From assembly GCA_000803105.1 (NCBI GenBank), contig JTDA01000007.1:1-64000 (forward strand): DNA of 64,000 nt, in the 5' to 3' direction. Origin of the DNA: Coprobacter secundus. Its GTDB lineage: Bacteria; Bacteroidota; Bacteroidia; Bacteroidales; Coprobacteraceae. The position numbers and the translations under genes were made by a program. Positions 92 through 59,067 of the stretch are shown here, in pieces. The notes below the pieces were generated by a model that was not told the DNA's origin, did not search any database, and worked only from the letters and a program-made list of their open reading frames with translations. Numbering within the stretch: the first letter of the stretch is position 1; every line of letters begins with the position of its first letter.

Positions 92-275
92 AGCTTAGAT
101 ACTGTCTAAATTTAGCTCAGGTCAGCTTTGAAAGTATCTTTCGAGGATGTTTTTCTATTTTTATGAGGAGGATAACAGGTTATCTGACGAGTGAAAATGG
201 GAAAAAAGACCGAAAGAAAACACTAAAATGACCGGATAATATTTTTCTATTGGGAAGTTTAGATTAGCTCTTAGA
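92..275 (+). repeat. Intergenic palindromic repeat, copy A
   Basis: First copy of a dispersed repeat family (other copies near 3934, 28092, 32731, 47561, 50348, 51245, 56408 and 58891). The left end carries ACTGTCTAAATTTAGCTC and the right end reads, on the other strand, AAGAGCTAATCTAAACTTCC, so the ends are imperfect inverted repeats. Inside, TTTCTTTCGAGGATGTTTTT on the left pairs imperfectly with the GAAAAAAGACCGAAAGAAAA stretch on the right, so the element could fold into one long hairpin with a loop around TATGAGGAGGATAACAGG. It lies 65 bp upstream of the lipoprotein gene that starts at 340. No coding potential is evident. A miniature inverted-repeat element is the best reading, but no transposase for it is in the window. 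Confidence 0.75.
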
Positions 276-339
276 GCCGGTTCCAATTCTGTAAGGCTCA
301 TTTATCAAACTATAAAAAAATATTTTTAAATTTCCTGTA

Positions 340-1725
340 ATGAACAAATCAATTGCAATATGGCTATTGTTCGGACTTATAGGGCTGAGCGCATGTACGA
401 ATACGTCCAGCAGGATATTGTTTGACGGTACCGACGTCGATAATTGGTATACTTCAGGCAATGTCTCTGTAGAAGACAGTATATTGGTAATTTCTGGCCT
501 CGACTCCTATGCCGTGCTGAAAAACAGCAAATACAAAGATTTTGATTTAAATCTAAAAATGCGCACTGTTCAGGGAGGTAAAGGGTTCATCGGCATTCAT
601 ACCGATGACACGGGCAAAGGCTATCGAATTGCCGTTAATAATGATATAAAAGACCCGGTATGGTGGAAGATGACAGGTAGTCTGTTGTCGGTACGTAATC
701 TGACCAAAAGCTTGGTAAAAGATGGACAATGGTTCGATTTGAATATTCGGGTCGAAGGTCAAGCCGTTTCTGTAAAAGTAAATGGAACGGTAGTTGTAGA
801 ATACATTGAACCTGCCCGGCCGTGGCGCATATCTCCTAACGAAAATGCCGTATTGTCAGAAGGTACACTTTCTCTGGTAAGTGAAAGTAAAGGGAATATC
901 GAGTTCAAAGAAATTTCGATAAAGACATTGAACCGTAAAGACATTAATATCCCGGCACAAATAGCTGTTGCTAAAAATGAGCAAGACGACGATATTTTGA
1001 GACTCCACCAAGAAGACTTTCCGGTTCTGGACTACCATGTCCATTTAAAAGGAGGCTTTACTAAAGAAGCTGCGGCAAGGCAATCAAGGCGGACAGGCAT
1101 CAATTATGCCATAGCTCCTAACTGTGGTATAGGATTTACCGTTACTGATGATAAAGGCATATATGCTTTTCTCGACTCTATGCGCACACAGCCGTTTATA
1201 CTGGCTATGCAGGGCGAAGGACGCGAATGGGTAACTACTTTTTCAGAAAAAGCCAGAAATGAGTTTGATTTCATTTTTACAGATGCTCTGACCTTCACCG
1301 ATATGAAGGGCAGGAGAGTACGCCTTTGGATAAATGATGAAGTTATTATTGACGATGAGCAGAAATATATGGATATGATTGTCGATAAGACATGTCAGGT
1401 AATGAAAGAACCCGCTAATATTTTTGTAAATCCTTTTTTCTTGCCCGAACAGATGAGCGACAGGTATGACATGTTCTGGACAGATGAACGCGTAGAAAAA
1501 GTTATCGATGCGATAATAGAAAACGGAAAGGTACTTGAAATAAACGAATTGTACCATATTCCCAGCAAGGCTATTATTGCAAAGGCCAAGAAGGCTGGAG
1601 TGAAATTCAGCTTTGGCTCCAACAATGTAAGTCCGGAAGTCGGACGTTTGGAATATTCTATTCAGATGAAAAAAGAATGTGGCTTGACATCGCAAGATAT
1701 GTATAAGCCTCCGGTTAAATTATAA
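340..1725 (+). CDS. Lipoprotein with 3-keto-disaccharide-hydrolase-like (DUF1080) and PHP-like domains
   Basis: The 461-residue product begins with a lipoprotein signal peptide ending in LSAC (Cys19), so it should be anchored in an envelope membrane. Residues of about 26-195 look like the DUF1080 / 3-keto-disaccharide hydrolase family (LFDGTDVDNW near the start, then a beta-rich laminin-G-like pattern such as GFIGIHTDD and KVNGTVVVEY). From about residue 225 there is a second, PHP-like metal-dependent hydrolase region opening with LDYHVHLKGG, whose histidines could bind metal, and closing with FSFGSNN. The family name implies action on oxidised sugars; the substrate here is unknown. No carbohydrate genes are adjacent. 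A terminator follows at 1755-1789. The domain order, sugar-binding-like module then PHP module, is assigned by eye. Confidence 0.75.
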   Translation: MNKSIAIWLLFGLIGLSACTNTSSRILFDGTDVDNWYTSGNVSVEDSILVISGLDSYAVLKNSKYKDFDLNLKMRTVQGGKGFIGIHTDDTGKGYRIAVNNDIKDPVWWKMTGSLLSVRNLTKSLVKDGQWFDLNIRVEGQAVSVKVNGTVVVEYIEPARPWRISPNENAVLSEGTLSLVSESKGNIEFKEISIKTLNRKDINIPAQIAVAKNEQDDDILRLHQEDFPVLDYHVHLKGGFTKEAAARQSRRTGINYAIAPNCGIGFTVTDDKGIYAFLDSMRTQPFILAMQGEGREWVTTFSEKARNEFDFIFTDALTFTDMKGRRVRLWINDEVIIDDEQKYMDMIVDKTCQVMKEPANIFVNPFFLPEQMSDRYDMFWTDERVEKVIDAIIENGKVLEINELYHIPSKAIIAKAKKAGVKFSFGSNNVSPEVGRLEYSIQMKKECGLTSQDMYKPPVKL

Positions 1726-1754
1726 TAAAGAGGTAATAAAGATTGTTTTTAGGT

Positions 1755-1789
1755 AAAAACGCCCCGTCTTTCTCAAACAGGGCGTTTTT
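1755..1789. terminator. Bidirectional rho-independent terminator
   Basis: A 10-bp perfect stem, AAAAACGCCC paired with GGGCGTTTTT, surrounds a 15-nt loop. It has a T-run on either strand, so it can end both the lipoprotein gene to its left and the convergent dehydrogenase gene to its right. Confidence 0.9.
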
Positions 1790-3933: not shown

Positions 3934-4117
3934 TAGAGCCCCCTGTCTAAATTTTACTCGAGGTCAAGTTTGAGAGCTTCTTTCAGGTCTCTCAGGATGT
4001 CTTTTTGTTTTTATGAAGAGGTCAACAGACTATCTGACGAATGAAAACAGAAAAAAGACCAAGAAAAAACACAAAAAGACCTGATGATATTTTCTTATTG
4101 AAAAAATTAAACGGTTC
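3934..4117 (+). repeat. Intergenic palindromic repeat, copy B
   Basis: This copy fills the gap between two convergent genes. The left end is TAGAGCCCCCTGTCTAAATT. The right end, on the opposite strand, is TAGGAACCGTTTAATTTTTT, so the ends are imperfect inverted repeats. The core shares AGGATGTCTTTTTGTTTTTA and ACTATCTGACGAATGAAAAC with copy A. Because it forms a long hairpin it may also end transcription from either side. Confidence 0.8.
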
Positions 4118-4196
4118 CTATATTTCCCCGGAAAACGAGATTCCGGAAGGAAATAAATAAGATGGCCATTTCGTCCGAGAGATTTAGATACATCCT

Positions 4197-21550: not shown

Positions 21551-21701
21551 CAGATTTAGCTATTACAATAAATTGGATATTCTATTGTTTCTGTCTGGCT
21601 TATATTTTACTATTGGCAAATTTATCTTCCATAGAATAAGAGTTGGTAGTCTTTTACCTCTTCATATATGAGATTCTTTGTATATAAGAAAGCGTATAAA
21701 C

Positions 21702-32995: not shown

Positions 32996-33060
32996 AAAAA
33001 AAGGTTGTCTCACGACAACCAATCTTCATTAACCTTAAATCTAATACCATGAAAAACACA
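32996..33060 (-). ncRNA. Small RNA gene, copy 2 (Bacteroidales-1-like)
   Basis: Minus-strand RNA of about 65 nt with the same parts as the copy at 21702: -7 box, GGTATTAGATTTAAGGTTAA, terminator GGTTGTC-GTGA-GACAACC and seven Us. The loop is one base shorter. It lies between the glycosyltransferase and chromate transporter genes. A target or role cannot be inferred from this window. Confidence 0.7.
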
Positions 33061-45023: not shown

Positions 45024-45036
45024 AAAAGCAATAATT

Positions 45037-45525: not shown

Positions 45526-45527
45526 AA

Positions 45528-47504
45528 CTATTCAGGAATATACCCTTTGTATTTTCCTGTCAGTTCATGCTTCATTAAATACTGTGCCGCTTGTAACATG
45601 GAAAAAGCATAACTTTTCATACTATCCTGTAAAGCCGGTTGCACCGACGGACCAGCTTCCTCGCTGTTCTCAACTTGTAACAGCCATTCTTGCCCATTAT
45701 CGGGCTGGTTTATATAAAAGAAATTTTTGTTTATACAACCGATAGCATCGTCGGAAGTAAAGAAGATGTAAGGACGTTTTTCACGCATCAAATCGATTCC
45801 GAAACTATTATTTGTATAGTCGATATTCAACATTCCGAGTAGGGTAGGAGCAATATCGATTTGGCCGCCTAACTCATCATTGGCTTGTGGTGTGATGAAG
45901 CCCGGACTGTAAAACAAGCAAGGCACATGATTATAAGACAATGGCATATCACTTTTTAGTTCTCCGACTTTTTTGCCATGATCTCCCACAAATACAAAGA
46001 TAGTATTCTTAAACCAAGGTTCGGACGAAGCTTTTTTCATAAATTCACCGATAGCATGGTCCGCAAACTCGACAATACGCATTTCGTCCGTCTGGCTATG
46101 GGATTTGAAATCTTTGGGTATTACATAAGGCGGATGGTTGCTGATACTCAGCAATACACCGAAAAATGGCTTACCCGTTTTAAACTCTTGGTTAAAGATA
46201 TCCAACGCATATTCATATAGAAAATCATCTTGCACGCCAAAACTGTTGACAACTTTTTCTCGTGGATAATTTTCTTGTGCATAGATTTGCTTAAATCCGT
46301 TTGTCCGCAAAAAACCGTTCATATTATCATATTGAGACTCGTGAGTCATAAAAAATAGGGTCTCATAACCGTTATCCTGCAATATGGTAGGCAATCCCGC
46401 ATAAAACGGAATAACGGCTCCTTTCATCGAGTTTCGCTTCATCAGAGCCGGATAGGAATACAATACCGAGTGTATGGCATGATTGGTATGAGTCCCGGCA
46501 GAATAAAATCTGTCGAAGCAGAGCGACTGTCGGGCTAAACTGTCGAGAGTAGGGGTGAGGTTTTCTGTATTCCCGTAGCGGTTTAACAATTTGGCCGACA
46601 TCGATTCCATGAATACCAATACGACATTTCGGTGCTCAGGTGACTTTTCTGCAACAATTTTCCGTGCAATAGGAGATATCTCTGGTATAGAATCTGTTAT
46701 TCCCAACTCTTTACGGACAAGACCGAGTGCTGCATTTTCATCCATCAGCTCCAATCCTTTATTTTCAGACTTAGAAGCCTCCAAAGAGCTCCTCAGAAGA
46801 TTAAAAGATGGGCTTATACCCAATTGGTTAAGGAAAGTATTGTTACAATAATAGGCAGCACTGACACGTATAGGATTATATCCTGTACGCCCCCTGATAC
46901 CGAACATGCAGGCTCCGATAAGCAATGCCGAACAGATGAAGATTAACGATTTTGTCTTTATTCCCGTATTTCTCCGATGTGATATGGAAAAGTCCCTGAC
47001 AGTCAATTTCAAAATACGTTTGGAAAGAAAGCAAAATAAAGCAATCATAAGTATCAGAAAAGCCATAGCCAATAAATATGAAGCCTCTCCGAACATCATT
47101 CCGGCCGTAGTGCCTACATATCCGAACCAGTTGAAGATAGATGCATTTATATGTTTAAAGAAATAATCAAAATAAGGAATATCCGCAGCCGATATAGTGA
47201 AAGCGACACCATAAAAAATACAGAAAAATATATTTATACCCCGATATATATTTCTATTATAACAGTTAAAAACTGCTGATAAAGAACATATTACCAAAGG
47301 CAACAGCAGTATATAGCACGCTACCACATTATCCATCCATACACCTCGCAAGAATGCTTCTGCTATAATACCGAATTTCCGGCTGGTTTCATCAATATAT
47401 CCGAACCCTTGTATGAGGAGAACTAAACGGAACAATGAGAAAAAAAATAGTCCGAGTATATGTATCGAAATAAGGTAACGCAATGATTGCAAATATGACT
47501 TCAT
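45528..47504 (-). CDS. LtaS-like membrane sulfatase/phosphoglycerol-transferase family protein
   Basis: A 658-residue protein with five N-terminal membrane helices (about 1-200) and a C-terminal extracytoplasmic alkaline-phosphatase-fold domain (about 280-620). That domain shows the metal-site Glu in VVLVFMESMSAKL, a probable Thr nucleophile in GTHTNHAIHS, FFMTHESQYDNM and VFVGDHGKK. The Bacteroidetes members of this family may modify surface glycans or lipids with phosphoglycerol or phosphoethanolamine; the product here is unknown. A -7 box, TACATTTG, is at 47546-47553. It runs convergent to the Spy-like gene. Confidence 0.86.
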   Translation of the reverse strand: MKSYLQSLRYLISIHILGLFFFSLFRLVLLIQGFGYIDETSRKFGIIAEAFLRGVWMDNVVACYILLLPLVICSLSAVFNCYNRNIYRGINIFFCIFYGVAFTISAADIPYFDYFFKHINASIFNWFGYVGTTAGMMFGEASYLLAMAFLILMIALFCFLSKRILKLTVRDFSISHRRNTGIKTKSLIFICSALLIGACMFGIRGRTGYNPIRVSAAYYCNNTFLNQLGISPSFNLLRSSLEASKSENKGLELMDENAALGLVRKELGITDSIPEISPIARKIVAEKSPEHRNVVLVFMESMSAKLLNRYGNTENLTPTLDSLARQSLCFDRFYSAGTHTNHAIHSVLYSYPALMKRNSMKGAVIPFYAGLPTILQDNGYETLFFMTHESQYDNMNGFLRTNGFKQIYAQENYPREKVVNSFGVQDDFLYEYALDIFNQEFKTGKPFFGVLLSISNHPPYVIPKDFKSHSQTDEMRIVEFADHAIGEFMKKASSEPWFKNTIFVFVGDHGKKVGELKSDMPLSYNHVPCLFYSPGFITPQANDELGGQIDIAPTLLGMLNIDYTNNSFGIDLMREKRPYIFFTSDDAIGCINKNFFYINQPDNGQEWLLQVENSEEAGPSVQPALQDSMKSYAFSMLQAAQYLMKHELTGKYKGYIPE

Positions 47505-47545
47505 TCCTGTATATTTTTTGATAAGAAATTATTTTTTGAGAATTT

Positions 47546-47553
47546 CAAATGTA
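47546..47553 (-). promoter_or_regulatory. -7 box of the sulfatase gene
   Basis: TACATTTG on the minus strand, 41 bp upstream of the start codon; repeat copy E begins 8 bp further upstream. Confidence 0.45.
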
Positions 47554-47560
47554 TATGATT

Positions 47561-47743
47561 CAAAAAGTTTTTTTTATTTTACTCGAAACCGGCTTTGAAA
47601 ATTTCTTTCAAGGCTGTTTTTCTGTTTACATAAAGATGATAGTGGGTTATTTGACAGTTGCAGACGGAAAACAAGCCCAAAGAAAACACATAGATAACCG
47701 ACTATATTACTTTATTGGAAAATTTGAACAAGCTTTGGCTCTT
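47561..47743 (+). repeat. Intergenic palindromic repeat, copy E
   Basis: The right end is well kept (ATTGGAAAATTTGAACAAGC then TTTGGCTCTT), the left end is worn. The core has GGCTTTGAAAATTTCTTTCA and GGTTATTTGACAGTTGCAGA. It lies 30 bp past the thioesterase stop codon and just upstream of the sulfatase promoter. An open frame through it (47549-47995) is not coding. Confidence 0.7.
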
Positions 47744-47773
47744 TATCTGATTTGTAATACCGTATGTATAGGG

Positions 47774-48262
47774 TTACAATGGATTTTCCTCTCGCTCTTC
47801 CACCGGACAATCGCAAAAATGAAATTCAGTACGAGCTTTTTCTTTAGGAAAAAGGAAATAAGTACATACAGCCCTGGTACACAACTCATTCTGCATATTG
47901 TAAATACAAGCGGCAATTTGTACCAGATTTCGTTTCTGTTCCTGTACAGACGCTCTCAAAACAATACGGTCGTCGGTAGTATATATCGGCTTTAGGTAAC
48001 GTATTTCCATTTTTGAAGTAACACCGCTGGTCTGGAACTTACGAAACACCACCCACCCACATATTTCATCGGCTAAAGCTGCTTGTATACCTCCATGCAA
48101 AGTATTTATCCAACCCTGATATTCCGGTCGTGGCTGCCATACACTCACGATATCATCTCCATCTTCATAAAATTCCATTTTTAACCCCAAATGATTGTCC
48201 GGAGCACAACCATAGCAATGATAACCATCCATTCCTTGCCACGGGTTTATTATTTTTTTCAT
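47774..48262 (-). CDS. PaaI-like hotdog-fold thioesterase
   Basis: A 162-residue cytosolic protein of the PaaI/acyl-CoA thioesterase group. Family marks are YQGWINTLHGGIQAALADEI, with the His-Gly-Gly of the active helix and its Asp, and SKMEIRYLKPIYTTDDRIVL. The substrate acyl-CoA is unknown. It follows purA on the same strand, separated by a hairpin terminator, so it probably has its own promoter. Length normal. Confidence 0.88.
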   Translation of the reverse strand: MKKIINPWQGMDGYHCYGCAPDNHLGLKMEFYEDGDDIVSVWQPRPEYQGWINTLHGGIQAALADEICGWVVFRKFQTSGVTSKMEIRYLKPIYTTDDRIVLRASVQEQKRNLVQIAACIYNMQNELCTRAVCTYFLFPKEKARTEFHFCDCPVEEREENPL

Positions 48263-48290
48263 CTCGAATAGTGTTTTTGAATATTTACCG

Positions 48291-48332
48291 GAAAAAATAC
48301 GCCCCAGCTTCCGACATTAGAAGCACGGGGCG
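48291..48332 (-). terminator. Rho-independent terminator of purA
   Basis: CGCCCC-A-GCTTC and GAAGC-AC-GGGGCG form a two-part stem around an 8-nt loop. On the minus strand it is followed by TATTTTTTCC. Confidence 0.85.
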
Positions 48333-48360
48333 CTCGCATTTTGTAAGCTGCGAGAATATT

Positions 48361-49638
48361 TTAGTTTTCCTCTTCGGTATAGCGCACGATTGTCTGCTCA
48401 CGATCAGGCCCTACCGAAACGATTTTGATAGGAACTTCAAGTTCGTTTTCAAGGAAAGAGAGATATGCATTAAATTCTTCCGGGAATTCATCTTCACTTT
48501 GCATTTTGGTCATATCACACTGCCATCCGGGAAGCTCGACATATACCGGTTCTATATCATCACCGATTTCAAAGGGGAACTGCTCGGTCTCCTTCCCGTT
48601 TATTTTGTAAGCGACACATGCTTTTATCGTTTCAAATGTATCGAGCACATCGCTTTTCATCATTATCAGATGGGTGACACCGTCTACCATAATGGCATAC
48701 TTCAAAGCGACAAGGTCTATCCAACCGCAACGGCGCGAACGTCCGGTAACGGCACCGAATTCATGGCCGATAGCCCGTATTTTTTCCCCGGTTTCATCAA
48801 AAAGTTCAGTAGGAAAAGGCCCGCTGCCCACACGGGTACAATAAGCCTTGAATATACCGTATACATTTCCGATTTTATTGGGTGCTACACCCAAACCCGT
48901 ACAAGCCCCAGCACATATCGTATTGGACGAAGTTACGAACGGATATGAACCGAAATCGATATCGAGTAGTGTGCCTTGAGCACCTTCCGCTAAAACTGAC
49001 TTGCCCGATTTCAAATAATCATTGATAACATGCTCGCTATCTATCAAATTGAATTTTTTCAAATATTCGACAGCCTCAAACCATTGCGTCTCAAGCTCGG
49101 TAATATCATAATCATAACTCAATGATTTTAATATAGCCTCATGTCTTGCCTTAGCTTTAGCGTATTTCTCGTCAAAATTATGCAATAAATCGCCTACGCG
49201 CAATCCGTTACGGCTTATTTTATCGGTATACGTCGGACCGATACCCTTTCCGGTTGTCCCGATTTTTGCATCACCCTTAGCCGCCTCATAAGCTGCATCG
49301 AGAATGCGATGTGTCGGGAGAATAAGATGCGCTTTTTTAGAAATGTAGAGTTGTTTAGTCAGGTCGTGCCCACTTTCGGCAAGACTTTCGGCCTCGATTT
49401 TGAACAACAACGGGTCGAGAACCACACCATTGCCTATAATGTTTATCTTTCCCCCTTGAAAAATACCCGAAGGAATAGAACGGAGTACATATTTCTGTCC
49501 GTCGAATTCTAATGTATGGCCGGCATTGGGACCTCCCTGAAAACGGGTGATAACATCATAATTGGGAGTAAGTACATCTACAACCTTGCCTTTACCTTCG
49601 TCTCCCCATTGTAATCCTAACAAAACATCTACTTTCAT
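48361..49638 (-). CDS. purA: Adenylosuccinate synthetase
   Basis: Catalyses the first committed step of AMP synthesis from IMP, aspartate and GTP. The 425-residue product shows the N-terminal GLQWGDEGKGKVVDVL, TRFQGGPNAGHTLEFDGQKY, GTTGKGIGPTYTDKISRNGL, AEGAQGTLLDIDFGSYPFVT and VTGRSRRCGWIDLVALK. All are standard active-site segments, so it is complete and cytosolic. The fur-like gene lies 47 bp upstream with its own terminator. Confidence 0.97.
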   Translation of the reverse strand: MKVDVLLGLQWGDEGKGKVVDVLTPNYDVITRFQGGPNAGHTLEFDGQKYVLRSIPSGIFQGGKINIIGNGVVLDPLLFKIEAESLAESGHDLTKQLYISKKAHLILPTHRILDAAYEAAKGDAKIGTTGKGIGPTYTDKISRNGLRVGDLLHNFDEKYAKAKARHEAILKSLSYDYDITELETQWFEAVEYLKKFNLIDSEHVINDYLKSGKSVLAEGAQGTLLDIDFGSYPFVTSSNTICAGACTGLGVAPNKIGNVYGIFKAYCTRVGSGPFPTELFDETGEKIRAIGHEFGAVTGRSRRCGWIDLVALKYAIMVDGVTHLIMMKSDVLDTFETIKACVAYKINGKETEQFPFEIGDDIEPVYVELPGWQCDMTKMQSEDEFPEEFNAYLSFLENELEVPIKIVSVGPDREQTIVRYTEEEN

Positions 49639-49671
49639 TGGTATAATATTATAGTAATTATTTTCTTATTC

Positions 49672-49699
49672 AAAAAAAATCCGTCTTATTTACGGACGG
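49672..49699 (-). terminator. Terminator overlapping the end of the fur-like gene
   Basis: On the minus strand CCGTC and GACGG form a 5-bp stem that encloses the stop codon and is followed by A and eight Ts. The 3' arm and T-run lie before purA. Confidence 0.75.
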
Positions 49700-50162
49700 T
49701 TTGTTTCTTTTTCTTTTCAGCTTGTGCACATCGGTTACAAACTCCATACACATAAAGCGAGTAATATGATGCTGTAAATTTTCCGAATTTTTTATTCGAC
49801 AATATATCGATAATTTCCTGGTCTTTGACTTCCTGTACCTTTCCACATCGGGTACAAATAAGATGATGGTGATTTACTGTATTATAAGATTTCTCATATT
49901 GAGCCGGATTGTTTCCAAACTGATGTTTCCTCACCAATCCCGCATCTACAAAAAGGTCTATAGAATTGTATACAGTCGCCTTACTCACACGGTATTTGCT
50001 ATTTACCATAAAATCGTACAAGGAATCTACGTCGAAATGTTCATTCGTCGAATATATCTTATCCAGTATCGCATACCGTTCCGGTGTTTTTCGAAGCTTC
50101 TTTGCCTCTAAATACTGGGTCAGCTTCTGTCTAACGACTTCTTTTGTTTTCTCTTCGGGCAT
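49686..50162 (-). CDS. Fur family metal-responsive transcriptional repressor
   Basis: The 158-residue regulator has the winged-helix domain (about 15-85, TPERYAILDKIYSTNEHFDV, SKATVYNSIDLFVDAGLV) and a C-terminal dimerisation part with metal ligands in NHHHLICTRCGKVQEV and the second Cys pair VCNRCAQ. It may be Fur, PerR or Zur; the sequence does not decide. The in-frame ATG at 50222 lies upstream of the -7 box at 50183-50190, so 50162 is the better start. It is followed by its terminator and purA. Confidence 0.9.
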   Translation of the reverse strand: MPEEKTKEVVRQKLTQYLEAKKLRKTPERYAILDKIYSTNEHFDVDSLYDFMVNSKYRVSKATVYNSIDLFVDAGLVRKHQFGNNPAQYEKSYNTVNHHHLICTRCGKVQEVKDQEIIDILSNKKFGKFTASYYSLYVYGVCNRCAQAEKKKKQTVRK

Positions 50163-50182
50163 AGTTTTTAACTCACAGCAGA

Positions 50183-50190
50183 CAAAGATA
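50183..50190 (-). promoter_or_regulatory. -7 box of the fur-like gene
   Basis: TATCTTTG on the minus strand, 20 bp upstream of the ATG at 50162, supporting that start. Confidence 0.55.
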
Positions 50191-50347
50191 CATATATTTT
50201 TTTTAATATCCGATAGCGACAAATAAATTAAAAGAGGAGATTACGCACTTCAGAAAGAAAGATAAATGCAAATTTTTTAAGAGCAAGATAAAGCGATTTA
50301 TACATTATCAAGGGCTCTCTAATATCTATGGAAATAGAGATTTACGA

Positions 50348-50515
50348 TAAAAGCCCTTTTAAATTTTGTCCGGGGTCAGCTTTGTGTTTCCTTTTGTGGC
50401 TGCTTTAAGGACAATAGCAAGTATGTGACGAAAAAAACAGAGAGCCTGCCTCAAAAGGAAACGCAAAAAAGGACTGAAAAATCATTTTTATTGAAAATTT
50501 TAAACGACTGGCTCT
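50348..50515 (+). repeat. Intergenic palindromic repeat, copy F (second loop type)
   Basis: It begins TAAAAGCCCTTTTAAATTTT and ends ATTGAAAATTTTAAACGACT then GGCTCT. The central part has GGACAATAGCAAGTATGTGA, shared with copy G but not with the others, so the family has at least two central variants. The right end runs into the coding sequence of the DNA alkylation repair gene, whose last five codons (SEPVV) and stop codon come from it. Confidence 0.75.
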
Positions 50516-51174
50516 GAGTATAAAAAATAAAATTCGTCTATAATATCCTCGGCAATACTTTTATTTAGAGGAGAATGATTCTTCCAAGATTCGGTTGCTG
50601 TTTTTATGGTCAACGCTGTCGGCCTATCAATTTGCAAGATACGTTTTACACAGTTTATAGCAGCATGAAGAGTAGTTATCGAAAAGCTGCTGGCATTTGT
50701 ATCTATGATATCCATAATACAAATCGGGACTTCTGCTGTAAATACATTTTTGGCCATAGCCAGTCGTGTTATCAACTGAAATCCCGTATAGCGGAGCATT
50801 TCATTATCAGAGCTTATCCATTTGAGAGCTTTATCGAGAGCAAAAGGAACTTTCTCAAACAGATTCATGCAACACATATCGGCAATCTCTCTGTATACGA
50901 TTGTATCGGCCCAGTGCTGCATTATCTCGGGTGTCAACTCCTGTGCAGGATATAATAAAGTGGCCAGAATTTTAGATTCCCGAATATTTTCTTTCCACAA
51001 CAATTCAGCAAGTTCCGCGTTTGGAGAATATTTTTCAGCGATGCGCTTTATCAAAGGAAGGGTAAGACCGAAATTTATCTTATAATCCATACCTTTTTCC
51101 CGCATGCTGGTCGATACGATACCATTCATGGCCATACGGAACTGTCGCTTTATTTCACGTATTTGAGCATCCAT
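50500..51174 (-). CDS. DNA alkylation repair protein (AlkD-like)
   Basis: The 224-residue helical repeat protein belongs to the AlkD-type DNA glycosylase-like family (ALK/HEAT-like repeats), which removes alkylated bases. Family features are MDYKINFGLTLPLIKRIAEK, ELLWKENIRESKILATLLYP and ALKWISSDNEMLRYTGFQLI. No signal peptide; cytosolic. Its last five codons and stop codon come from the end of repeat copy F, a possible late change to the C-terminus that does not affect the core. Whether the enzyme is active here cannot be told. Confidence 0.85.
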   Translation of the reverse strand: MDAQIREIKRQFRMAMNGIVSTSMREKGMDYKINFGLTLPLIKRIAEKYSPNAELAELLWKENIRESKILATLLYPAQELTPEIMQHWADTIVYREIADMCCMNLFEKVPFALDKALKWISSDNEMLRYTGFQLITRLAMAKNVFTAEVPICIMDIIDTNASSFSITTLHAAINCVKRILQIDRPTALTIKTATESWKNHSPLNKSIAEDIIDEFYFLYSEPVV

Positions 51175-51244
51175 ATTTTATCAGTTGATAAGTAAAATAA
51201 CCAACGATTAACAAAGAATACGACAATTCATTACTAATCGTTGG

Positions 51245-51345
51245 TTAAGAGACTGTTTCTATTTTATTCGAGCCTGCTTTGTGAATTTTCTTTATGAGAA
51301 AATTCTGACTGTTTTTTTAGAGTTCTACGAACAATAGCAAGCTAA
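51245..51345 (+). repeat. Intergenic palindromic repeat, copy G (right part lost)
   Basis: The left end TTAAGAGACTGTTTCTATTT and the GAGCCTGCTTTGTGAATTTT core are recognisable. CGAACAATAGCAAGCTAAAA matches the central variant of copy F. The right terminus is not recognisable and the element fades before the DPP III stop codon at 51374. Confidence 0.55.
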
Positions 51346-51373
51346 AAACCTTACCCAAAATATATCCGGTTTA

Positions 51374-53413
51374 TTAATAATTGTATGTCGGTAAATTAGA
51401 ATAATCTTTCGAATAACGTAACATTTGGTCTATGTAACTCTCGTTATAAGAAATAGTCACATCCGTAATATTTCCTTTCTTATCAGTTACAGCTGTATAA
51501 ACAGGATTTACAAAGCCCTTATAAGGAGCAATATTCAACTTTTCATAACGGTTGAGTACCTCTTTGTGCAATTCTGGATCTACTTTGACACCATAAGTTT
51601 CTACCAAGTCCCGTCCGGCTTCGTAATCTCCGGTAGACTTTATCCGTTGTATTTCAGCCAATAACTCTCCCAACAAAGAACGCATTTTTGCATAATCATT
51701 AATGACGACAAACGTTTTGCCATCCTTTTTCTTCATTTCTACAACATTGTCCTTTTGCCCTTTTTCAAAAACATAACGGGCAATAAGTTGTCTGTTTCTC
51801 ATATGGGCTTCTTCAATATTCTTGCCTGGTTCTATACGTGTAAGCTGGGTCATGAGCCCGTTCATCATATATTTATAATATTCCGATTTATAAGCCTCAG
51901 CATTGGGCAATAACTTTAATTCTACAATTTTCGGATCTGCCATATAATATAAAGCAAACAAGTCGGCACGGGCTTCTTCAAGAGTAGAACTGTGGGCTTT
52001 CAGCGCATCGGGATCTGTGCCCGGAAGCAATTTTCCCGAAGCATGCCCCAGACATTCATGTAAGTCTGTATGTAAATTATCAGCCTGAAATCCGTATTTT
52101 TCCATCAATTCTCTTTCTTTATCACTCCATACAAACTCTTCAGCAAATCCGTTGCCTTGAGCCGCTTTATCATAAGCTTCAGTGATATTTTCTATCGTTA
52201 CCGATTTAGAACCATGCTCGTGACGTATCCAATTGGAATTGGGCAAATTGATACCGATAGCCGTAGAAGGATAAGTATCTCCCCCAAGAATAGCAGCTGT
52301 AATGACTTTTGCCGACACACCTTTTACTTTCTCTTTTTTAAAGCGGTTGTCCACAGGCGAATTATCCTCAAACCATTGAGCATTGGCGCTAATGATGTGA
52401 GTTCTTTCGGAGGCTTCTTTATTTTTGAAATTAACCAGAGCTTCCCAACTGGCCTTCATCCCCAAAGGATCACCATACGTTTCGGTAAATCCGTTGACAA
52501 AATCAATATCAGAGTCCAAGTCATTTACCCATAAAATAGCATATTCGTCAAACTCTTTCAGATTTCCGGTCTTATTATAAGAGATAAGCTTCTCTATGAC
52601 AGCTTTTTGCTGAGCATTTTCCGCTACAGATGCAGCCTTTTCAAGCCAATACACAATTTTTTCAAGAGCTTTTGAGTAGAGGCCTCCTACTTTATATACA
52701 CGCTCCTCGATTTTCCCATTTCTCTTTACCAACCGGCTATTCAGCCCATACGAAACAGGCCTCAAATCGTTCGGATTTTTCATCTTATTGTAAAAAGCCT
52801 CGGCTTCAGCTTGTGTTACACCATCATAGTAATTCCCGGCAGAAGTCAGTACAAGGTCTTCTCCTTCCGCCTGATTTACCCGCTTAGCATCTATGGTAGG
52901 ATCAAAAATAACTGGAGATATGTTTGCAAGTAATTGGTTTACCGTCTCACCTTTTTGAAGAGGCAAATATCGGGTATCGACAGACTTTACAGCTTTTTCA
53001 AAAAATTCCTGTCCGAATCCGGGAACAAATTTATCGGTAGAGTAGTGGTGGTGTATACCGTTGGCAAACCATACTTGTTTCAGATAGGTTTCCAAAGCCT
53101 TGAAATCATCGGAATTTCTATCACCTTTATACTGAGTATAAACTGCTTCGAGAGTTCTCCGGATAGCCAAATTCCATTTACAGTTCTGGTCATAAATAAT
53201 ATCGCGTCCCTCTATTGCCGCTTGAGACAGATAATATAATAATTTCTTTTGTTGCAATGTCAATTTTTCGAACCCCGGAACTTTATATCGCAATACTTCC
53301 AGGTCTGCAAAACGGTCGACCCTGTAAAACGGATCGACACTCTCGACCGAAGCGATGCCGGTCGATACGGAGAAAGCAGTTGCTGCAATCATCATAGAAA
53401 TAGTTTTTTTCAT
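51374..53413 (-). CDS. Dipeptidyl peptidase III-type zinc exopeptidase (M49)
   Basis: A 679-residue protease that removes dipeptides from the N-terminus of oligopeptides. Catalytic motif HECLGH at H452-H457 and the third zinc ligand Glu in EEARAD (E479-D484) are the M49 set, in the bacterial HEXXGH form rather than the longer eukaryotic one. An N-terminal signal peptide is probable (ISMMIAATAFSVSTGIA), so the protein is likely periplasmic. Length and order fit the Bacteroides enzyme. Promoter at 53472-53502 on the minus strand. Confidence 0.92.
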   Translation of the reverse strand: MKKTISMMIAATAFSVSTGIASVESVDPFYRVDRFADLEVLRYKVPGFEKLTLQQKKLLYYLSQAAIEGRDIIYDQNCKWNLAIRRTLEAVYTQYKGDRNSDDFKALETYLKQVWFANGIHHHYSTDKFVPGFGQEFFEKAVKSVDTRYLPLQKGETVNQLLANISPVIFDPTIDAKRVNQAEGEDLVLTSAGNYYDGVTQAEAEAFYNKMKNPNDLRPVSYGLNSRLVKRNGKIEERVYKVGGLYSKALEKIVYWLEKAASVAENAQQKAVIEKLISYNKTGNLKEFDEYAILWVNDLDSDIDFVNGFTETYGDPLGMKASWEALVNFKNKEASERTHIISANAQWFEDNSPVDNRFKKEKVKGVSAKVITAAILGGDTYPSTAIGINLPNSNWIRHEHGSKSVTIENITEAYDKAAQGNGFAEEFVWSDKERELMEKYGFQADNLHTDLHECLGHASGKLLPGTDPDALKAHSSTLEEARADLFALYYMADPKIVELKLLPNAEAYKSEYYKYMMNGLMTQLTRIEPGKNIEEAHMRNRQLIARYVFEKGQKDNVVEMKKKDGKTFVVINDYAKMRSLLGELLAEIQRIKSTGDYEAGRDLVETYGVKVDPELHKEVLNRYEKLNIAPYKGFVNPVYTAVTDKKGNITDVTISYNESYIDQMLRYSKDYSNLPTYNY

Positions 53414-53471
53414 AATTTATAAATAACTTCTTGTTTTTCGGATTTCTATCCTTTCTCATATTTCACAATGG

Positions 53472-53502
53472 CAAAGTTAATGAAATATATTTTTCTCCCC
53501 AA
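53472..53502 (-). promoter_or_regulatory. Promoter of the DPP III gene
   Basis: On the minus strand TTG (53502-53500), a 20-nt spacer and TAACTTTG (53479-53472). The start codon is 58 bp downstream. Confidence 0.65.
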
Positions 53503-53524
53503 TTCGCAAACTAATAATGAAAAA

Positions 53525-53564
53525 TAAACCCCGTAAAAGTTTTATAAGGCTTTTACAGGGTTTA
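53525..53564 (-). terminator. Rho-independent terminator of the SusD-like gene
   Basis: TAAACCC-C-GTAAAAG pairs with CTTTTAC-A-GGGTTTA (one mismatch) around a 10-nt loop; on the minus strand it is followed by TTTTTC. Confidence 0.8.
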
Positions 53565-53588
53565 TCGCATTTTTTATTTCGGCTACCG

Positions 53589-55544
53589 TTAATATCCCGG
53601 ATTTTGTGTAAGATTTGGATTTTCCTTCATAGCATCTGTCGGTATTGGCAATAACTGATGCTTGTTTTGGGCATCCGGCATAGATGCCACATAGATGCCC
53701 CACCTTCTCAGGTTGAAGTATGTTGCAGACTCGAGTAACATCTCATTATTCCAAGTATTCCAAAGTACACGGCGTAACTCATCCTGTGTAAGTCCGTTCT
53801 CGATAGGAGGATATCCTCTAAACAGCCGGGTCTGATTTATATATTCATAAGCCTCCATGGTACGACCGGTTTCGAGAGCAGCTTCTGCAGCCGTGAACAT
53901 AATCTCACAATAACGTACCGGATGATAATACAGGCCTTTCGCATATTTAAAGTCGGAATCATCATATCCTCCTAAAATTACGTTATTTCCGTTTTTCTGT
54001 GAAAATACCAACGAACTATCTGCCGGCAGACTGTAATTGCCGGTACTGATAATTTTTTTACACTGGTCAAGTGCCCTATCATATTCTCTATCGGATAAAT
54101 ATATGCGCGATACCAAAGCCGATACGGCTGTAGAATACTCAGAAGGGAGCATATTGATAAGGTAATTCATATAGTCAACCAGTGCGTCATTGTTTCTCGG
54201 AGGCATCTGCCCTGTTATATCGTTGATAACGGAGACTTCACCGAAAAATTTTGATAATTCCGAATATATCAATGCACATTCGGCTTGCATACGTAAAGAA
54301 GCCGTGGCCCATTCCGATTTTACATTTTCGGGACAATCATTCGAATTGGTAAACTTGTCATTTGCCTGTAAATAGCTATTTATCAAACTATATCCACTAT
54401 TCCATATATTCTCTCCCCATTGATTAAAATAGTTGGAATTGAACATATTAGGAACTTCAATATATCCTATCAATTTAGCATCTGTTTCTCGGGTCAAATT
54501 AAGGAAACTTTTCAACTGTTTGTTCCACTCATCCTTCTGAGATTGTAACATTTGAGCCCAATCAGTAGAAGGCGCAATACGATTACTTGTCAGATAAACT
54601 ACCGAACTCTTTAATGTCTCTCCATCGGCATAACGGATGTATCTTTGAGGTATACCATTGACTTTATCGCTGTTATCGATTATTCCGTCACCATTTACAT
54701 CGGCAAATTTTAAATCGCCCGGTTTCGGTGTCGATATGATATAGCTCGGCCATGCATCTATTTCTACTTGGCTGGTAAATATCCCTTCTACCATGAAACC
54801 ATCATATATATTGCTGAGAGAATCGCCAGAAATAGCAGTATAACTTATTTCCGGTTCATTATGCTTTACCGAAACTTCGCCATTTGCATCAGTATAATAT
54901 ACACCCAGTGTCTTGCCGTCGGCAGTATACACCGTAACCTCTGCCCCTTCTATCGGTCTTCCCTGAACAGAGTCCATCACAGACCAATTTGTATTACAAC
55001 GTTTCACCGAAATAATAGCCTCTTTGTCTGTAGTAGAAGGGATCGAGTCGATAGATTCATTTACGGGAATGACCTCAGGAACAATATACATATAACTGTT
55101 TCCAATCTTCATTCCGGCAGTTTCAATAGGTATACCGTTTATGGCAACAATCGAATTTTGATTGGTAACCAATAAAGGTTCATTGCTGACACTGGTCAAT
55201 AATAATGAATCCTTCAACTCATCTATACTATAAGCGCCACGAGCAATGTGACGTTTGATATTTTCCTGGTTCAGTTGATTTTCAGAAACTTCAGAGCGAA
55301 CCTTTAATTCCTGATTTTTAACAGCAAATACAGTAAGCTGATTTGTTTCTACATCCGGAATAGAAACTTTTTTAAGCTCTTCGGTAAAATCACTTATTTC
55401 TGGAATTTTTTCCAGTTCTTCAATAACTTCTTGCACCTCCTTATCGGCTGGCGACAATTCTGCTGGATCGTCATTTTCTTCACATGAAATAAGACATAGA
55501 CTCACCAGACTCAAAAAAAAAGCTGATAATCGTAAAAATTTCAT
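53589..55544 (-). CDS. FAS1 - SusD-like fusion lipoprotein (orphan)
   Basis: From MKFLRLSAFFLSLVSLCLIS the 651-residue product has a lipobox with Cys21. Residues of about 45-155 resemble a fasciclin (FAS1) domain (ISDFTEELKKV, VAINGIPIETAG). Residues of about 180-250 form a beta-sandwich with GRPIEGAEVTVYTADGKTLG. Around 280-293 is a calcium-loop-like DVNGDGIIDNSDKV, a motif more usual in TonB-linked SusC proteins. The C-terminal half is SusD/RagB-like, with TPR helices (VSALVSRIYLSDREYDRALD) and the closing FNLRRWGIYVA and LLPIPTDAMKENPNLTQNPG. No SusC gene is adjacent. Glycan or protein ligand unknown. The ATG at 55577 precedes the signal and is not used. Confidence 0.82.
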   Translation of the reverse strand: MKFLRLSAFFLSLVSLCLISCEENDDPAELSPADKEVQEVIEELEKIPEISDFTEELKKVSIPDVETNQLTVFAVKNQELKVRSEVSENQLNQENIKRHIARGAYSIDELKDSLLLTSVSNEPLLVTNQNSIVAINGIPIETAGMKIGNSYMYIVPEVIPVNESIDSIPSTTDKEAIISVKRCNTNWSVMDSVQGRPIEGAEVTVYTADGKTLGVYYTDANGEVSVKHNEPEISYTAISGDSLSNIYDGFMVEGIFTSQVEIDAWPSYIISTPKPGDLKFADVNGDGIIDNSDKVNGIPQRYIRYADGETLKSSVVYLTSNRIAPSTDWAQMLQSQKDEWNKQLKSFLNLTRETDAKLIGYIEVPNMFNSNYFNQWGENIWNSGYSLINSYLQANDKFTNSNDCPENVKSEWATASLRMQAECALIYSELSKFFGEVSVINDITGQMPPRNNDALVDYMNYLINMLPSEYSTAVSALVSRIYLSDREYDRALDQCKKIISTGNYSLPADSSLVFSQKNGNNVILGGYDDSDFKYAKGLYYHPVRYCEIMFTAAEAALETGRTMEAYEYINQTRLFRGYPPIENGLTQDELRRVLWNTWNNEMLLESATYFNLRRWGIYVASMPDAQNKHQLLPIPTDAMKENPNLTQNPGY

Positions 55545-55717
55545 ATTATGTGGATTATTTTTATAATATATTTGCAATATTACAAAATAAATTAGATGTC
55601 GACAATAATATGTGAAATAAAATTTAATTTTATAAATATATTTGAGAATCTATAAATTATGATTGTCATAATTATCTTTTTTCTATCAACAAAAGAATGA
55701 GCCGCTTGTTTCTTTAT

Positions 55718-55725
55718 TAACTTTG
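55718..55725 (+). promoter_or_regulatory. -7 box of the small outer-membrane protein gene
   Basis: TAACTTTG fits the -7 consensus and is 19 bp upstream of the start codon at 55745. AAGGAG at 55736-55741 is a possible ribosome binding site. No -33 element at the usual distance. Confidence 0.55.
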
Positions 55726-55744
55726 CATAAATAATAAGGAGAAT

Positions 55745-56410
55745 ATGAAAATAAGGGTTAAGATTACTTGTTTTTTTCTGTTTGCTTGCTTTCTTATGAT
55801 GGCACAGACCGGAGAGAAAAAACGACCTTTCCGTTTTGAAAAAGTTGATTCCGAAACAGAAAGAAAGATTTTGCAAAATGAGCAGTCTGTCAATCAGACG
55901 ACAGCTGATTATCGGGTAATAGAAGAAAAAGAACCACAGCCTGAACCGGTCCGGACACGAAAAAAAGGTAAGATAGAATTAGGAGGTTCGTTCGGCATGA
56001 CTTTTTCCAACGGAACCTCTATCAATATCTCTCCTCAAGTAGGATATCGCATAAACTCCTATTTTTCTTTTGGTGGCGGTATCAGTTACAACTACTATCG
56101 CTACAATACTTGGGACGATAGTCGATATACAATGAACTATATGGGACTTAACCTATATGCCCGAGTCAAACCTATTCCTTATATAACAATTCAAGCTCAA
56201 CCGGAAGTACAACGCAACTGGGGACGTAGAGACGGGCACTCATATAAAGGAGAAGTAATACCTTGTTTCTTGGTTGGGGCAGGGGCAAACCTCCCGATAG
56301 CCGGTAATAGCGGTATATCTGTGATGTTATATTATGATGTCGTACAAAATAAATTTACTCCTTACGGAAATAAAATATTTTATTCCGTAGGATATAGTTT
56401 TGGATTTTAG
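55745..56410 (+). CDS. Small outer-membrane beta-barrel protein
   Basis: The 221-residue product has a signal peptide (about 1-20, MKIRVKITCFFLFACFLMMA). A charged linker (about 22-75) leads to a likely eight-strand barrel: GSFGMTFSNGTSINISPQVG, YFSFGGGISYNYYRYNTWD, MNYMGLNLYARVKPIP. It ends in Phe (SVGYSFGF), the usual signal for barrel insertion. It is an OmpX/porin-like protein of unknown role. The TAG stop codon overlaps the first bases (TAGAGCC) of repeat copy H. Confidence 0.75.
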   Translation: MKIRVKITCFFLFACFLMMAQTGEKKRPFRFEKVDSETERKILQNEQSVNQTTADYRVIEEKEPQPEPVRTRKKGKIELGGSFGMTFSNGTSINISPQVGYRINSYFSFGGGISYNYYRYNTWDDSRYTMNYMGLNLYARVKPIPYITIQAQPEVQRNWGRRDGHSYKGEVIPCFLVGAGANLPIAGNSGISVMLYYDVVQNKFTPYGNKIFYSVGYSFGF

Positions 56411-56545
56411 AGCCGGTTTAATTTTTTATTCGAACCTCGTCCTTTGAAAATTTCTTTTGAGGATGCTTTTAGAGCAGTATCAAACAAATGAACGCAAGAA
56501 AACCAAACCGATAGATAATATAAAATAGGCCCGACAAAACTTTAT
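56408..56545 (+). repeat. Intergenic palindromic repeat, copy H
   Basis: The left end TAGAGCCGGTTTAATTTTTT is well kept, and its first three bases are the stop codon of the barrel gene. The core GAAAATTTCTTTTGAGGATG and the right arm GAACGCAAGAAAACC are recognisable; the right terminus is worn. It lies between two convergent genes. Confidence 0.6.
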
Positions 56546-56603
56546 GCAAAAATTCATGCGGCTTTGAATATCGTTAAATGAATCTTTCTTAAAGCAGCAG
56601 ATT

Positions 56604-57266
56604 TTATTCTATCTTTTCAATCATCAGGTCTGGCAATTGCTGAATGTATTTGAACACATTCCCTTCCTCGCTATGATTTCGATTTTTAATGACGATAGTA
56701 ACGTGATACACAACATGATTTTCTCTCCATTCCTGCTTGGCTTCATAACTGATGATACGATAATTTTTCTGCAATACCATGTCCGTTATCTTAGATAAAT
56801 TATCGGGATTTCCGGTCGAAAATTGTATCATAGCACTATGAAATCCAACTTTTTTGAAAATTATGGTCAACAACTCAAGCCCCAACAATGTAAATATGGT
56901 TGCCGATATACCGAGCCAATACATGCCGCTGCCAATAGCCAGACCTATACCGGAGGTTGCCCATAGTCCTGCCGCAGTTGTCAATCCCCTTACAAACTGT
57001 TTCTGTATAATGATTGTCCCTGCACCGATAAACCCGATGCCACTTACGACTTGGGCTGCTACCCGACTGGGATCGAAATCTATATGATGTTCCTTCGCTA
57101 TTTGCATAAAACCATATTGAGACACAATCATAATAAGTGCGCTTCCCAACGATACCAGAAAATGAGTTCTGAATCCGGCTTCTTTAGCTCGATACTCTCT
57201 GTCAAGTCCTATAATAGCTCCCAATATACCGGCAGTAAACAATCGTAAAATAAATTCCCCTGTCAT
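56604..57266 (-). CDS. MgtC/SapB family membrane protein
   Basis: A 220-residue protein with about five membrane helices in the first 145 residues and a C-terminal cytosolic ACT-like domain. Family signatures are GAIIGLDREYRAKEAGFRTH, RVAAQVVSGIGFIGAGTIII and GLTTAAGLWATSGIGLAIGS. Such proteins are tied to growth at low Mg2+ and, in pathogens, to survival in macrophages; here the role is unknown. -7 box TATATTTG at 57321-57328 on the minus strand. Confidence 0.9.
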   Translation of the reverse strand: MTGEFILRLFTAGILGAIIGLDREYRAKEAGFRTHFLVSLGSALIMIVSQYGFMQIAKEHHIDFDPSRVAAQVVSGIGFIGAGTIIIQKQFVRGLTTAAGLWATSGIGLAIGSGMYWLGISATIFTLLGLELLTIIFKKVGFHSAMIQFSTGNPDNLSKITDMVLQKNYRIISYEAKQEWRENHVVYHVTIVIKNRNHSEEGNVFKYIQQLPDLMIEKIE

Positions 57267-57602
57267 ATCATTCCTTTATAAACTGTATCATAACAAATCC
57301 GGGACATATCCGGTTTATGACAAATATACATAAAGATTTTTGATTGTTTATCATATTTGACTTCCTTAAAAATGTTTCCATATCGAAAGATGAAGAGACG
57401 GAAGATATTATCGTACATTTTATTTTTAAAATATTATTTTATTGGAGAAAAAAGTATTGGCTATACTCTTTTATAATCTGAATCGAATAACTAATTTTGC
57501 CCATCTTTTTATAAAAAGCTTTGACGAATATTGATTCTATAAAAAAAGGTTGGAGTATTTGCTTATTGAAAGTTTATTTTTTAGTGTTTTTTTAGAATAG
57601 AA
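57267..57602. other. Intergenic stretch before the MFS transporter gene
   Basis: The 336-bp gap contains the -7 box of the MgtC gene (57321-57328). A weak resemblance to the right end of the palindromic repeat around 57440-57475 is not convincing. The promoter of the MFS gene was not identified. Nothing else is recognised. Confidence 0.35.
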
Positions 57603-58805
57603 ATGATGGAAGAGAAAAAAAAGAATACAAAACCTGTTTTGTGGAACAGCAACTACTTGAAAGTATGGATAGCTAATTTTATGCTTTTTTTTGCATTTTA
57701 TTTGCTCGCCCCCTTGTTACCGCTTTATTTACGAGATACTTTTTCCGCCGGAAAAGCGATGATAGGTATTGTACTAAGTGGATATACGATTACAGCCTTG
57801 ATAGTCCGGCCATTTAGCGGATTTGTTGTCGACAGTTTCTCCCGTAAAAAGGTTCTGCTGCTTTGTTATTTCTGCTTTGCCTTGTTCTTTGCAGGCTATT
57901 TCATCACGGGTTCCCTCATTCTTTTTGCTGCCATTCGTACTTTACACGGTGCACCTTTTGGTGCGACGACTGTCGCGAGCAGTACTATGGCTGTAGATGT
58001 CTTGCATCCCGAACGTCGGAGCGAGGGCATCGGATATTATGGACTGAGCAATAACATAGCTATGGCAATAGGACCTTCGATAGGACTTTATATCTATCAC
58101 ACAATCCATAACTTCAATATACTGTTTGCCATGTCTCTTGTAATCGCATTCATCGGCCTGGCTATCAATTCTACCATCAAGTGCCGCGAACGCCAACCGA
58201 TACAGAAGAATCAAAAAGTTTCTCTTGACCGATTTATCCTTCTACCGGGATGGAGCGAGGGCCTTTGTATTACAGCATTTTCTTTTTCATTCGGTATTAT
58301 CTCTACATACATAGCCATATACAGCCAAGAAGTTATGCACATAACTTCCGGCTCAGGAACATTCTTTATGCTCTTGGCTATTGGTCTTATAATGTCGAGA
58401 ATTATCGGGAGTAAGTCCCTCCGAGAAGGTAAAATTGTACATAACGCCTCTGCCGGAATGCTGATGTCAATGTGCGGTTATCTGGTTTTCACAGCTATAC
58501 CCAATATATACGGATACTATGCTGCTGCACTTATGATAGGTCTCGGAAACGGACACATGTATCCGGCTATGCAGACAATGTTTATCAATCTGGCACCCCA
58601 TGAGCGACGAGGGACAGCCAATTCCACTATACTCACATCTTGGGACATAGGTGTCGGTATCGGTATTATTGGAGGAGGCGCTGTAGCTGAACATCACGGA
58701 GGTTACTCTGCTGCATTTTGGCTCGCTTTTGCAATAAATGCCATTGGTGTCATTTTTTATTTCCTTTATGCACGCAAGAGCTTTCTGCGCCACCGTCTTC
58801 GTTAG
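57603..58805 (+). CDS. Major facilitator superfamily transporter
   Basis: A 400-residue MFS exporter with about 12 membrane helices. The cytosolic loop between helices 2 and 3 has the usual MFS form, FSRKKVLLLCYFC, and the sixth-to-seventh linker lies around residue 200. Residues FMLFFAFYLLAPLLPLYLRD at the start and TILTSWDIGVGIGIIGGGAV in the second half are typical of drug or sugar exporters. The substrate is not determined. Start at 57603, or at the second Met (57606). Repeat copy I follows the gene. Confidence 0.9.
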   Translation: MMEEKKKNTKPVLWNSNYLKVWIANFMLFFAFYLLAPLLPLYLRDTFSAGKAMIGIVLSGYTITALIVRPFSGFVVDSFSRKKVLLLCYFCFALFFAGYFITGSLILFAAIRTLHGAPFGATTVASSTMAVDVLHPERRSEGIGYYGLSNNIAMAIGPSIGLYIYHTIHNFNILFAMSLVIAFIGLAINSTIKCRERQPIQKNQKVSLDRFILLPGWSEGLCITAFSFSFGIISTYIAIYSQEVMHITSGSGTFFMLLAIGLIMSRIIGSKSLREGKIVHNASAGMLMSMCGYLVFTAIPNIYGYYAAALMIGLGNGHMYPAMQTMFINLAPHERRGTANSTILTSWDIGVGIGIIGGGAVAEHHGGYSAAFWLAFAINAIGVIFYFLYARKSFLRHRLR

Positions 58806-58890
58806 TTGATTTTTTAATGTCACCATTTGGAAAAGCAGATAAAGAACAATAAACCTATGAAATTACCAGATAGAAAATTTTAGATAAATC

Positions 58891-59067
58891 TAAGGGCTTC
58901 GCTAAATTTTGCTCAGGTCAAGTTTGAAAATTTCTTTCGAAGATGTTTTTCTGTTTTTATGAGGAGGATACGGGCTATCCAACGAGTGAAAACGAGAAAT
59001 ATAACGAAAGAAAACGCAAAAATGTTCCGGCAATATTTTCCTATTGGAAAAGTTAGACTGGTTCTAA
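58891..59067 (+). repeat. Intergenic palindromic repeat, copy I
   Basis: A full copy with ends TAAGGGCTTCGCTAAATTTT and, on the opposite strand, TTAGAACCAGTCTAACTTTT. The core TTTCTTTCGAAGATGTTTTT and TTTTTATGAGGAGGATACGG is nearly identical to copy A, and the right arm GAAAGAAAACGCAAAAATG pairs back to it. It lies between two plus-strand genes, 86 bp after the MFS stop and 67 bp before the dehydrogenase start. Apart from it the 329-bp gap holds no recognised signal. Confidence 0.85.

Follow-up and report, generated by a model that had tools for sequence, protein, structure and literature searches.

Repeat copies and target duplication

The window analysed here, the first 64,000 nucleotides of contig C7 (C7:1-64000) in the 4.14-Mb, 45-contig genome of Coprobacter secundus (G000), carries nine copies of a palindromic repeat in the gaps between genes or at gene ends (Table 1). 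The repeats are about 160-190 bp long, lack a gene of their own and very probably form a family of non-autonomous miniature inverted-repeat transposable elements (MITEs). The family as such is real, as all nine places claimed by the initial annotation fit R1, a covariance model serving as profile and built from alignment A3 (19 G000 copies), each on the + strand and with E values from 1.2e-34 to 6.5e-5. At E<=0.001 the R1 search returned no tenth place in the window, and its two opposite-strand matches there are known palindromes read in reverse. Three copies, at 32730, 56407 and 51246, have diverged and score 36-54 bits; the last of them is truncated, since the 3' part of the model enters the conserved end of an M49-peptidase gene (51374). 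Few copies overlap an open reading frame (ORF) of at least 90 aa: 4 among the 55 inspected in G000 and 2 among the 51 inspected in G001, a congener with a one-contig genome of 3.44 Mb. Some of these ORFs may be spurious; with so few overlaps, the initial description of the repeats as lying between genes and having no ORF of their own holds.

The element opens with a 17-bp inverted repeat, GAGCCTGTYTAAATTTT, and closes with its inverse. Inverted ends of 20 bp had been described initially; the inverted ends are genuine, whereas the 20 bp resolve into the 17-bp repeat plus a 3-bp target-site duplication (TSD), TWA. Stretches of G000 and G001 provided 45 end pairs from 44 copies, one copy in L111 being counted with two right ends, and 21 of these pairs have TWA on both sides. 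The triplets agree directly in 17 of the 21 and in inverted form in 4 (Fisher p=0.0046), the other 24 of the 45 pairs being excluded from the test. The same is seen in G309, a genome from another family of the order, where the end pattern occurs at least 54 times forward and at least 57 times in reverse against 0 for the control among the matches listed, a limit that applies to all G309 counts on the ends. A direct 3-bp repeat flanks 30 of the 40 G309 copies with both ends (16 TTA, 13 TAA and 1 CTA), and the pairs with TWA on both sides are direct in 29 cases against 6 (n=35, Fisher p=1.3e-4, 5 of the 40 copies excluded). Furthermore, 27 of the 40 copies are exactly 188 bp long and near-identical; G309 is a recently active relative. 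The middle base of the triplet is variable, and at the two ends it agrees in direct, not inverted, form; the duplication is therefore 3 bp, not TA.

Table 1. Repeat copies of the window and the terminal inverted repeats of the best-scoring copy
Feature	Position	Strand	Details
Copy, top scorer of window	95-273	+	198.7 bits; TSD TTA at 95-97 and 271-273; element proper 98-270
5' terminal inverted repeat of copy 95-273	98-114	+	family consensus GAGCCTGTYTAAATTTT
3' terminal inverted repeat of copy 95-273	254-270	-	
Copy amid convergent gene ends	3936-4121	+	151 bits
Copy flanked by two - strand genes	28092-28251	+	142.6 bits; neighbours cNMP-binding, Leu/Phe-tRNA transferase
Diverged copy	32730-32917	+	51.9 bits; TSD TTA/TTA; element 32733-32914
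Copy	47561-47738	+	144.7 bits
Diverged copy	50348-50517	+	78.7 bits; between FUR-family gene and DNA-alkylation-repair-like gene
Truncated copy	51246-51350 (right bound estimated)	+	model bounds 51246-51411, 36.1 bits
Diverged copy amid convergent gene ends	56407-56568	+	53.6 bits
Copy	58891-59067	+	180.4 bits; TSD TAA/TAA; element 58894-59064

Copy number and distribution

Counts from the R1 searches of G000 and G001 are lower bounds, as 150 candidates were scored in each. In G000, raw matches at E<=0.1 number at least 90, with certain places matched on both strands, and distinct places at least 76 after merging and the removal of opposite-strand duplicates and of matches weaker than about E 0.017. 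For G001 the figure is at least 142 matches at E<=0.001, of which 141 rows were used after one opposite-strand duplicate had been removed. The end pattern by itself, with up to 3 mismatches, occurs at 57 places in G000 against 2 for the reversed pattern.

The profile search proposed in the initial annotation thus yields many places in the own genome and, in addition, matches in some relatives, with a patchy distribution. At E<=1e-5, 4 of 31 genomes (the own genome and 30 relatives) match and 27 do not; within the genus, own genome included, 2 of 5 genomes match at E<=1e-6, two congeners have no match and a third (G003) has one weak match. Across the order, where no more than 6 candidates were scored in each genome, the threshold of E<=1e-5 is passed by 7 of 393 genomes, namely G000, G001, G003 (weak), G023, G309, G142 and G260, with G023 and G309 belonging to one genus in another family. 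The mean identity among the 30 best copies is 0.77 in G000 and 0.82 in G001, and 14 of 30 G000 copies are closer to some G001 copy than to any copy of their own genome. For the host itself, the closest of the listed records to its adenylosuccinate synthetase comes from an uncultured Parabacteroides MAG (85% identity).

Orthologous gaps of congeners at 47561, 50348 and 51246 are without copies, although their flanks, at about 75% identity, are too diverged for base-exact empty sites. At 47561 the gap measures 73 bp in G002 against 835 bp here, a difference that also covers a thioesterase-family gene (47774-48262). No copy is seen at 50348 in the aligned gaps of G001, G003 and G004, nor at 51246 in those of G001-G004, where the gap is 61 bp in G002 against 188 bp here.

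The exact core pattern gave 0 matches in collections of genome contigs and viral contigs, from which records near the genome of the window were possibly excluded. Plasmid and phage records, each collection searched with one window copy and also with a G309 copy, contained no match, and among 25 other loci (24 from a set of 80, and L061) there was a single match, the already known one in L061. Among the literature records listed on MITEs with Bacteroides (15 of 388) and on Bacteroidetes palindromic repeats (4 of 4), ISfinder and subscription papers being outside the scope, none showed a description of the family.

Probable mobilisation in trans

The suspicion of a MITE voiced initially is borne out by the inverted ends, the target duplications, the high copy number, the siting in gene gaps, the patchy presence and the near-identical 188-bp copies of G309. 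With a probability of about 0.82, the repeats are non-autonomous MITEs for which an IS1031-type transposase of the IS5 family is the most likely source of mobility in trans, the enzyme recognising GAGCCTGTYTAAATTTT and duplicating TWA; the assignment to IS1031 rests on the comparison of ends and targets given in the last section. Such an enzyme, supplied in trans, would bind the 17-bp ends and duplicate the 3-bp TWA target on insertion. The folded strand, as RNA or single-stranded DNA, may aid the movement or persistence of the element, and the inserted copies would then decay, rendering no general service to the host.

Several observations weigh against this interpretation. Just 17 of all 45 end pairs in G000 and G001 are directly equal, and the TSD fails in 10 of the 40 G309 copies. 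Furthermore, a transposase matching the ends, to which the initial annotation had looked for proof, is missing: none is bounded by the element's ends among the PF01609 and PF13586 matches and the stretches inspected, a search that did not extend to other transposase families. PF01609 has 2 matches in G000 and 1 in G001, none with the element's ends, and the 1 PF13586 match in five genomes of the genus also lacks them. In 13 intervals of 0.7-2.7 kb between inverted ends, and by eye in 20 G309 stretches around ends, only ordinary-looking genes or no ORF of 150 aa were present. In each stretch the three longest ORFs were assessed by eye, the remaining ORFs being listed beside nine lone ends; ten ORFs between inverted ends or beside lone ends, run against Pfam, included 0 transposases.

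A transposase gene with other ends was also observed. At L153 (G001 C1:1713666-1714394), a PF01609 transposase gene is bounded by inverted GAGGGTGTAT.AAAATT ends; it is presumably IS1182-like.

Orientation of copies in the own genome

The orientation of the copies in G000 is the least explained fact about the family. On the ten contigs with at least two copies, 68 of 71 copies follow the majority orientation of their contig, where random orientation gives a mean of 45.5 and 0 of 200000 trials reach 68. Two ambiguous contigs (C28 and C34) and the single-copy contigs C6 and C16 stand outside the 71. The orientation is nearly uniform per contig on C7, C4, C10, C11, C12, C15 and C24 (the window and L092-L111), unlike in G001, and the copies are clustered, with none on C2, C3, C5, C9 and C13 among the matches listed. 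Judged by fourfold sites, the majority and C-rich strands coincide in 8 of the 10 contigs and are opposite in C12, and C18 is undecided; the single copy of C6 lies against the C-rich strand.

The uniform orientation and the predominance of the C-rich strand are what insertion coupled to the replication fork would produce, as is known for Tn7-TnsE and IS200/IS605 (PMC5371812, in the portion available). That fork coupling fixed the orientation in this genome is conceivable but tentative and, on balance, unlikely. Fourfold-site skew is weak in C10, C11 and C24 and flips sign between stretches of C10 and C11, raw GC skew is contrary in C11, C24 and most of C10, and all 4 copies of C12 are opposite despite a strong skew. 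Raw GC skew alone gave no link between orientation and replication; fourfold-site skew reversed that outcome for C10, C11 and C24, but not for C12. No bias is seen in G001, where skew places the origin near 2.32 Mb and the terminus near 0.535 Mb: 68 of 141 copies lie on the C-rich strand, with no trend by score, and the copies form 70 orientation runs against 67.8 expected (n=134 copies). In G309, where skew is weak, the C-rich strand holds 11 of 29 copies. A test in G001 for an age-dependent loss of wrongly oriented copies likewise showed no trend by score. If true, fork-locked insertion would leave series of equally oriented copies that extend over hundreds of kilobases, and the contrast between G000 and G001 offers a direct way to test either fork-coupled insertion or a loss of hairpins that depends on orientation.

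Two other G000 stretches, L127 (C8) and L118 (C21), differ in composition, with a GC content of about 51% and strong skew, compared to 33-47% in the other G000 stretches read. They are possibly integrated mobile regions.

Hairpin structure and covariation

The inner palindrome folds preferentially on one strand. Copy 95-273 reaches -46.7 kcal/mol on the top strand against -23.2 on the bottom strand, the majority consensus of G001 reaches -80.2 against -51.5 kcal/mol, and the better fold belongs to the top strand in 34 of 44 G000 copies and in 16 of 17 copies from other genomes. The test for compensatory change, put forward initially as a check on the hairpin, gives a strong signal between genera and a weak one within G001. 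In alignment A5, which comprises 15 copies from six genomes, 24 of the 43 consensus pairs show two-sided change compared to 13.3 in shuffles (0/500 reach 24) and at most 11 in slid controls, and 92.6% of the cells are paired against 83.0% in shuffles. When the majority sequences of four lineages are compared, one lineage being represented by a single sequence, both sides differ in 18 of the 43 pairs. The consensus structure has 43 pairs (-22.9) on the top strand and 5 pairs (-3.8) on the bottom strand, and its long stem and apex contain 46 G.T cells against 6 A.C cells in a structure derived with G.U allowed. The tip GC[AG]GGC is intact in all 16 copies of other lineages, in 15 of 30 in G001 and in 8 of 30 in G000.

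Within G001 alone, two-sided change is hardly above shuffles, with 34 pairs against 30.0 (66/500) and 79 cells against 61.7 (1/500), and RNAalifold gives no consensus structure on either strand for 58 distinct G001 rows; both results speak against use of the fold by the host. The RNAalifold result, the only 9 pairs that this program gives among the 19 G000 copies, and a shuffle control that leaves the relatedness among copies in place also weigh against the interpretation of the family given above. Moreover, palindromic DNA can gain compensatory change by repair templated on the opposite arm, without selection, and such repair is an alternative source for part of the covariation. Taken together, the alignments point to a one-strand hairpin under apparent selection across lineages.

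A more far-reaching proposal joins the fold to the orientation: the mobile unit would need one of its strands to fold, as RNA or as single-stranded DNA, with the fixed C[AG]GG tip of the hairpin being selected for mobilisation across Bacteroidales families and with fork-locked insertion in one species. This combination is doubtful. Improbable, in turn, is a structured non-coding RNA that is transcribed from a promoter of its own, is spread as a mobile element and acts in the cell or in transposition. The covariation between genera and the conserved tip would suit such an RNA; however, its copies decay, and Rfam has no match to the window copies at the gathering score and, for four loci at E<=1, only a 23.8-bit match to a microRNA family, far under its cut-off.

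Two paralogous sRNA genes of the FopS family (RF04319) are present in the window, at 21699-21766 and 32993-33059 on the - strand, with about 80 bits each.

Relation to host genes and alternative target

The initial annotation had also considered that the repeats act as terminators or RNA-stabilising hairpins. Kept between genes as a host-serving terminator or mRNA stabiliser, the element would put its strong one-strand hairpin to direct use, and the strongest terminator-like site of window 45000-60000 does sit within copy 47561. A general role of this kind is nevertheless very improbable. Terminator-like sites in that part of the window are no commoner than in shuffles (10 against 11.2), and two of four congeners do without any copy while a third has its one weak match. 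The orientation of copies to flanking genes (++, +-, --, -+) is random in both G000 (12/13/12/10) and G001 (17/11/8/13), so the flanking genes are ruled out as what sets it. Decay is also strand-symmetric: at consensus Watson-Crick pairs in 50 G001 rows, the departures are 171 G.T to 149 A.C in the inner stem and 74 to 62 in the terminal inverted repeats. Since decay within a genome favours neither strand, it is probably the element, not the host genes, that the hairpin serves. We infer that selection acts on the element lineage and that neutral decay follows insertion.

Insertion at TA in the manner of IS630/mariner, suggested initially because many ends read TA-GAGCC...GGCTC-TA, is hardly credible, as the direct agreement of the middle base (17 against 4 in G000 and G001, 29 against 6 in G309) gives a 3-bp TWA duplication and rules out a 2-bp TA target in both sets.

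With its clear ends and target, the family represents a mobile element of patchy spread in the Bacteroidales. The inner hairpin of this transposon combines covariation between genera and strand preference with the decay of single copies, a combination by which selection on the element can be told apart from use by the host.

Derivative forms and arrangements

G000 also contains forms of about 50-80 bp without the hairpin core. Elements of about 70 bp at L103:11221-11291, L113:10327-10398, L092:16893-16963 and L115:2863-2935 keep both ends, have lost the core and show similar junctions; a deletion by replication slippage is a possible origin. A viral contig carries a 39-bp palindrome of the element's end, and a further G309 element, about 75 bp long, has ends in ..AAATTTG. 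A similarity to the element's end, possibly fortuitous, is also shown by tandem repeats of about 75 bp that lie inside an ORF (L286:2170-2440, G309 C14).

Some copies are found in compound arrangements. At L104:11705-13306 (G000 C11), a Fic-family ORF (PF02661) lies between two copies of a diverged subfamily whose starts are separated by about 1.4 kb, a layout like that of a composite transposon. In G001, copies at C1:3128713-3128749 and 3246523-3246865 abut or slightly overlap and share end bases, as if one had inserted into the TWA of another.

Comparison with known systems

RUP, ERIC, Correia and similar hairpin MITEs are, like the element described here, short, gene-less, palindromic and multi-copy, but differ from it in their ends and hosts; for RUP, insertion is at TA and involves IS630. 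REP/REPIN sequences with RAYT share the folded palindrome and the preference for one strand. REPs, however, have neither 17-bp inverted ends nor TSDs and serve as single-strand HUH substrates.

Within the Bacteroidales, the MITEs BrickBuilt and MITE464/PgRS of Porphyromonas gingivalis resemble the element in having GAG.. ends that have been likened to IS5 (GAGACCTTCGCA, GAGACTGTTGCA) and, for BrickBuilt, in their intergenic siting (PMC4596501, PMC10969869; available sections of both). These MITEs differ in their ends and in carrying internal tandem repeats instead of one long hairpin, and the TSDs of BrickBuilt differ in length and sequence.

The closest likeness is to the IS1031 subgroup of IS5, which, in the accessible part of the report on its member ISLrh, has a TNA target and a 3-bp repeat (PMC12016507). 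ISLrh carries a 17-bp inverted repeat, GAACCTGTCTAGTATCT, and the 17-bp ends of the element, GAACCTGTCTA.., come close to its GAGCCTGTCTA.. (PMC12016507). Unlike ISLrh, the element has no transposase gene, measures 160-190 bp, forms a hairpin and resides in a different host phylum. The ends of both nonetheless span 17 bp and follow a GAxCCTGTCTA-like pattern, and both use a TNA-type target that is duplicated over 3 bp, as far as the same part of the ISLrh report describes it (PMC12016507).

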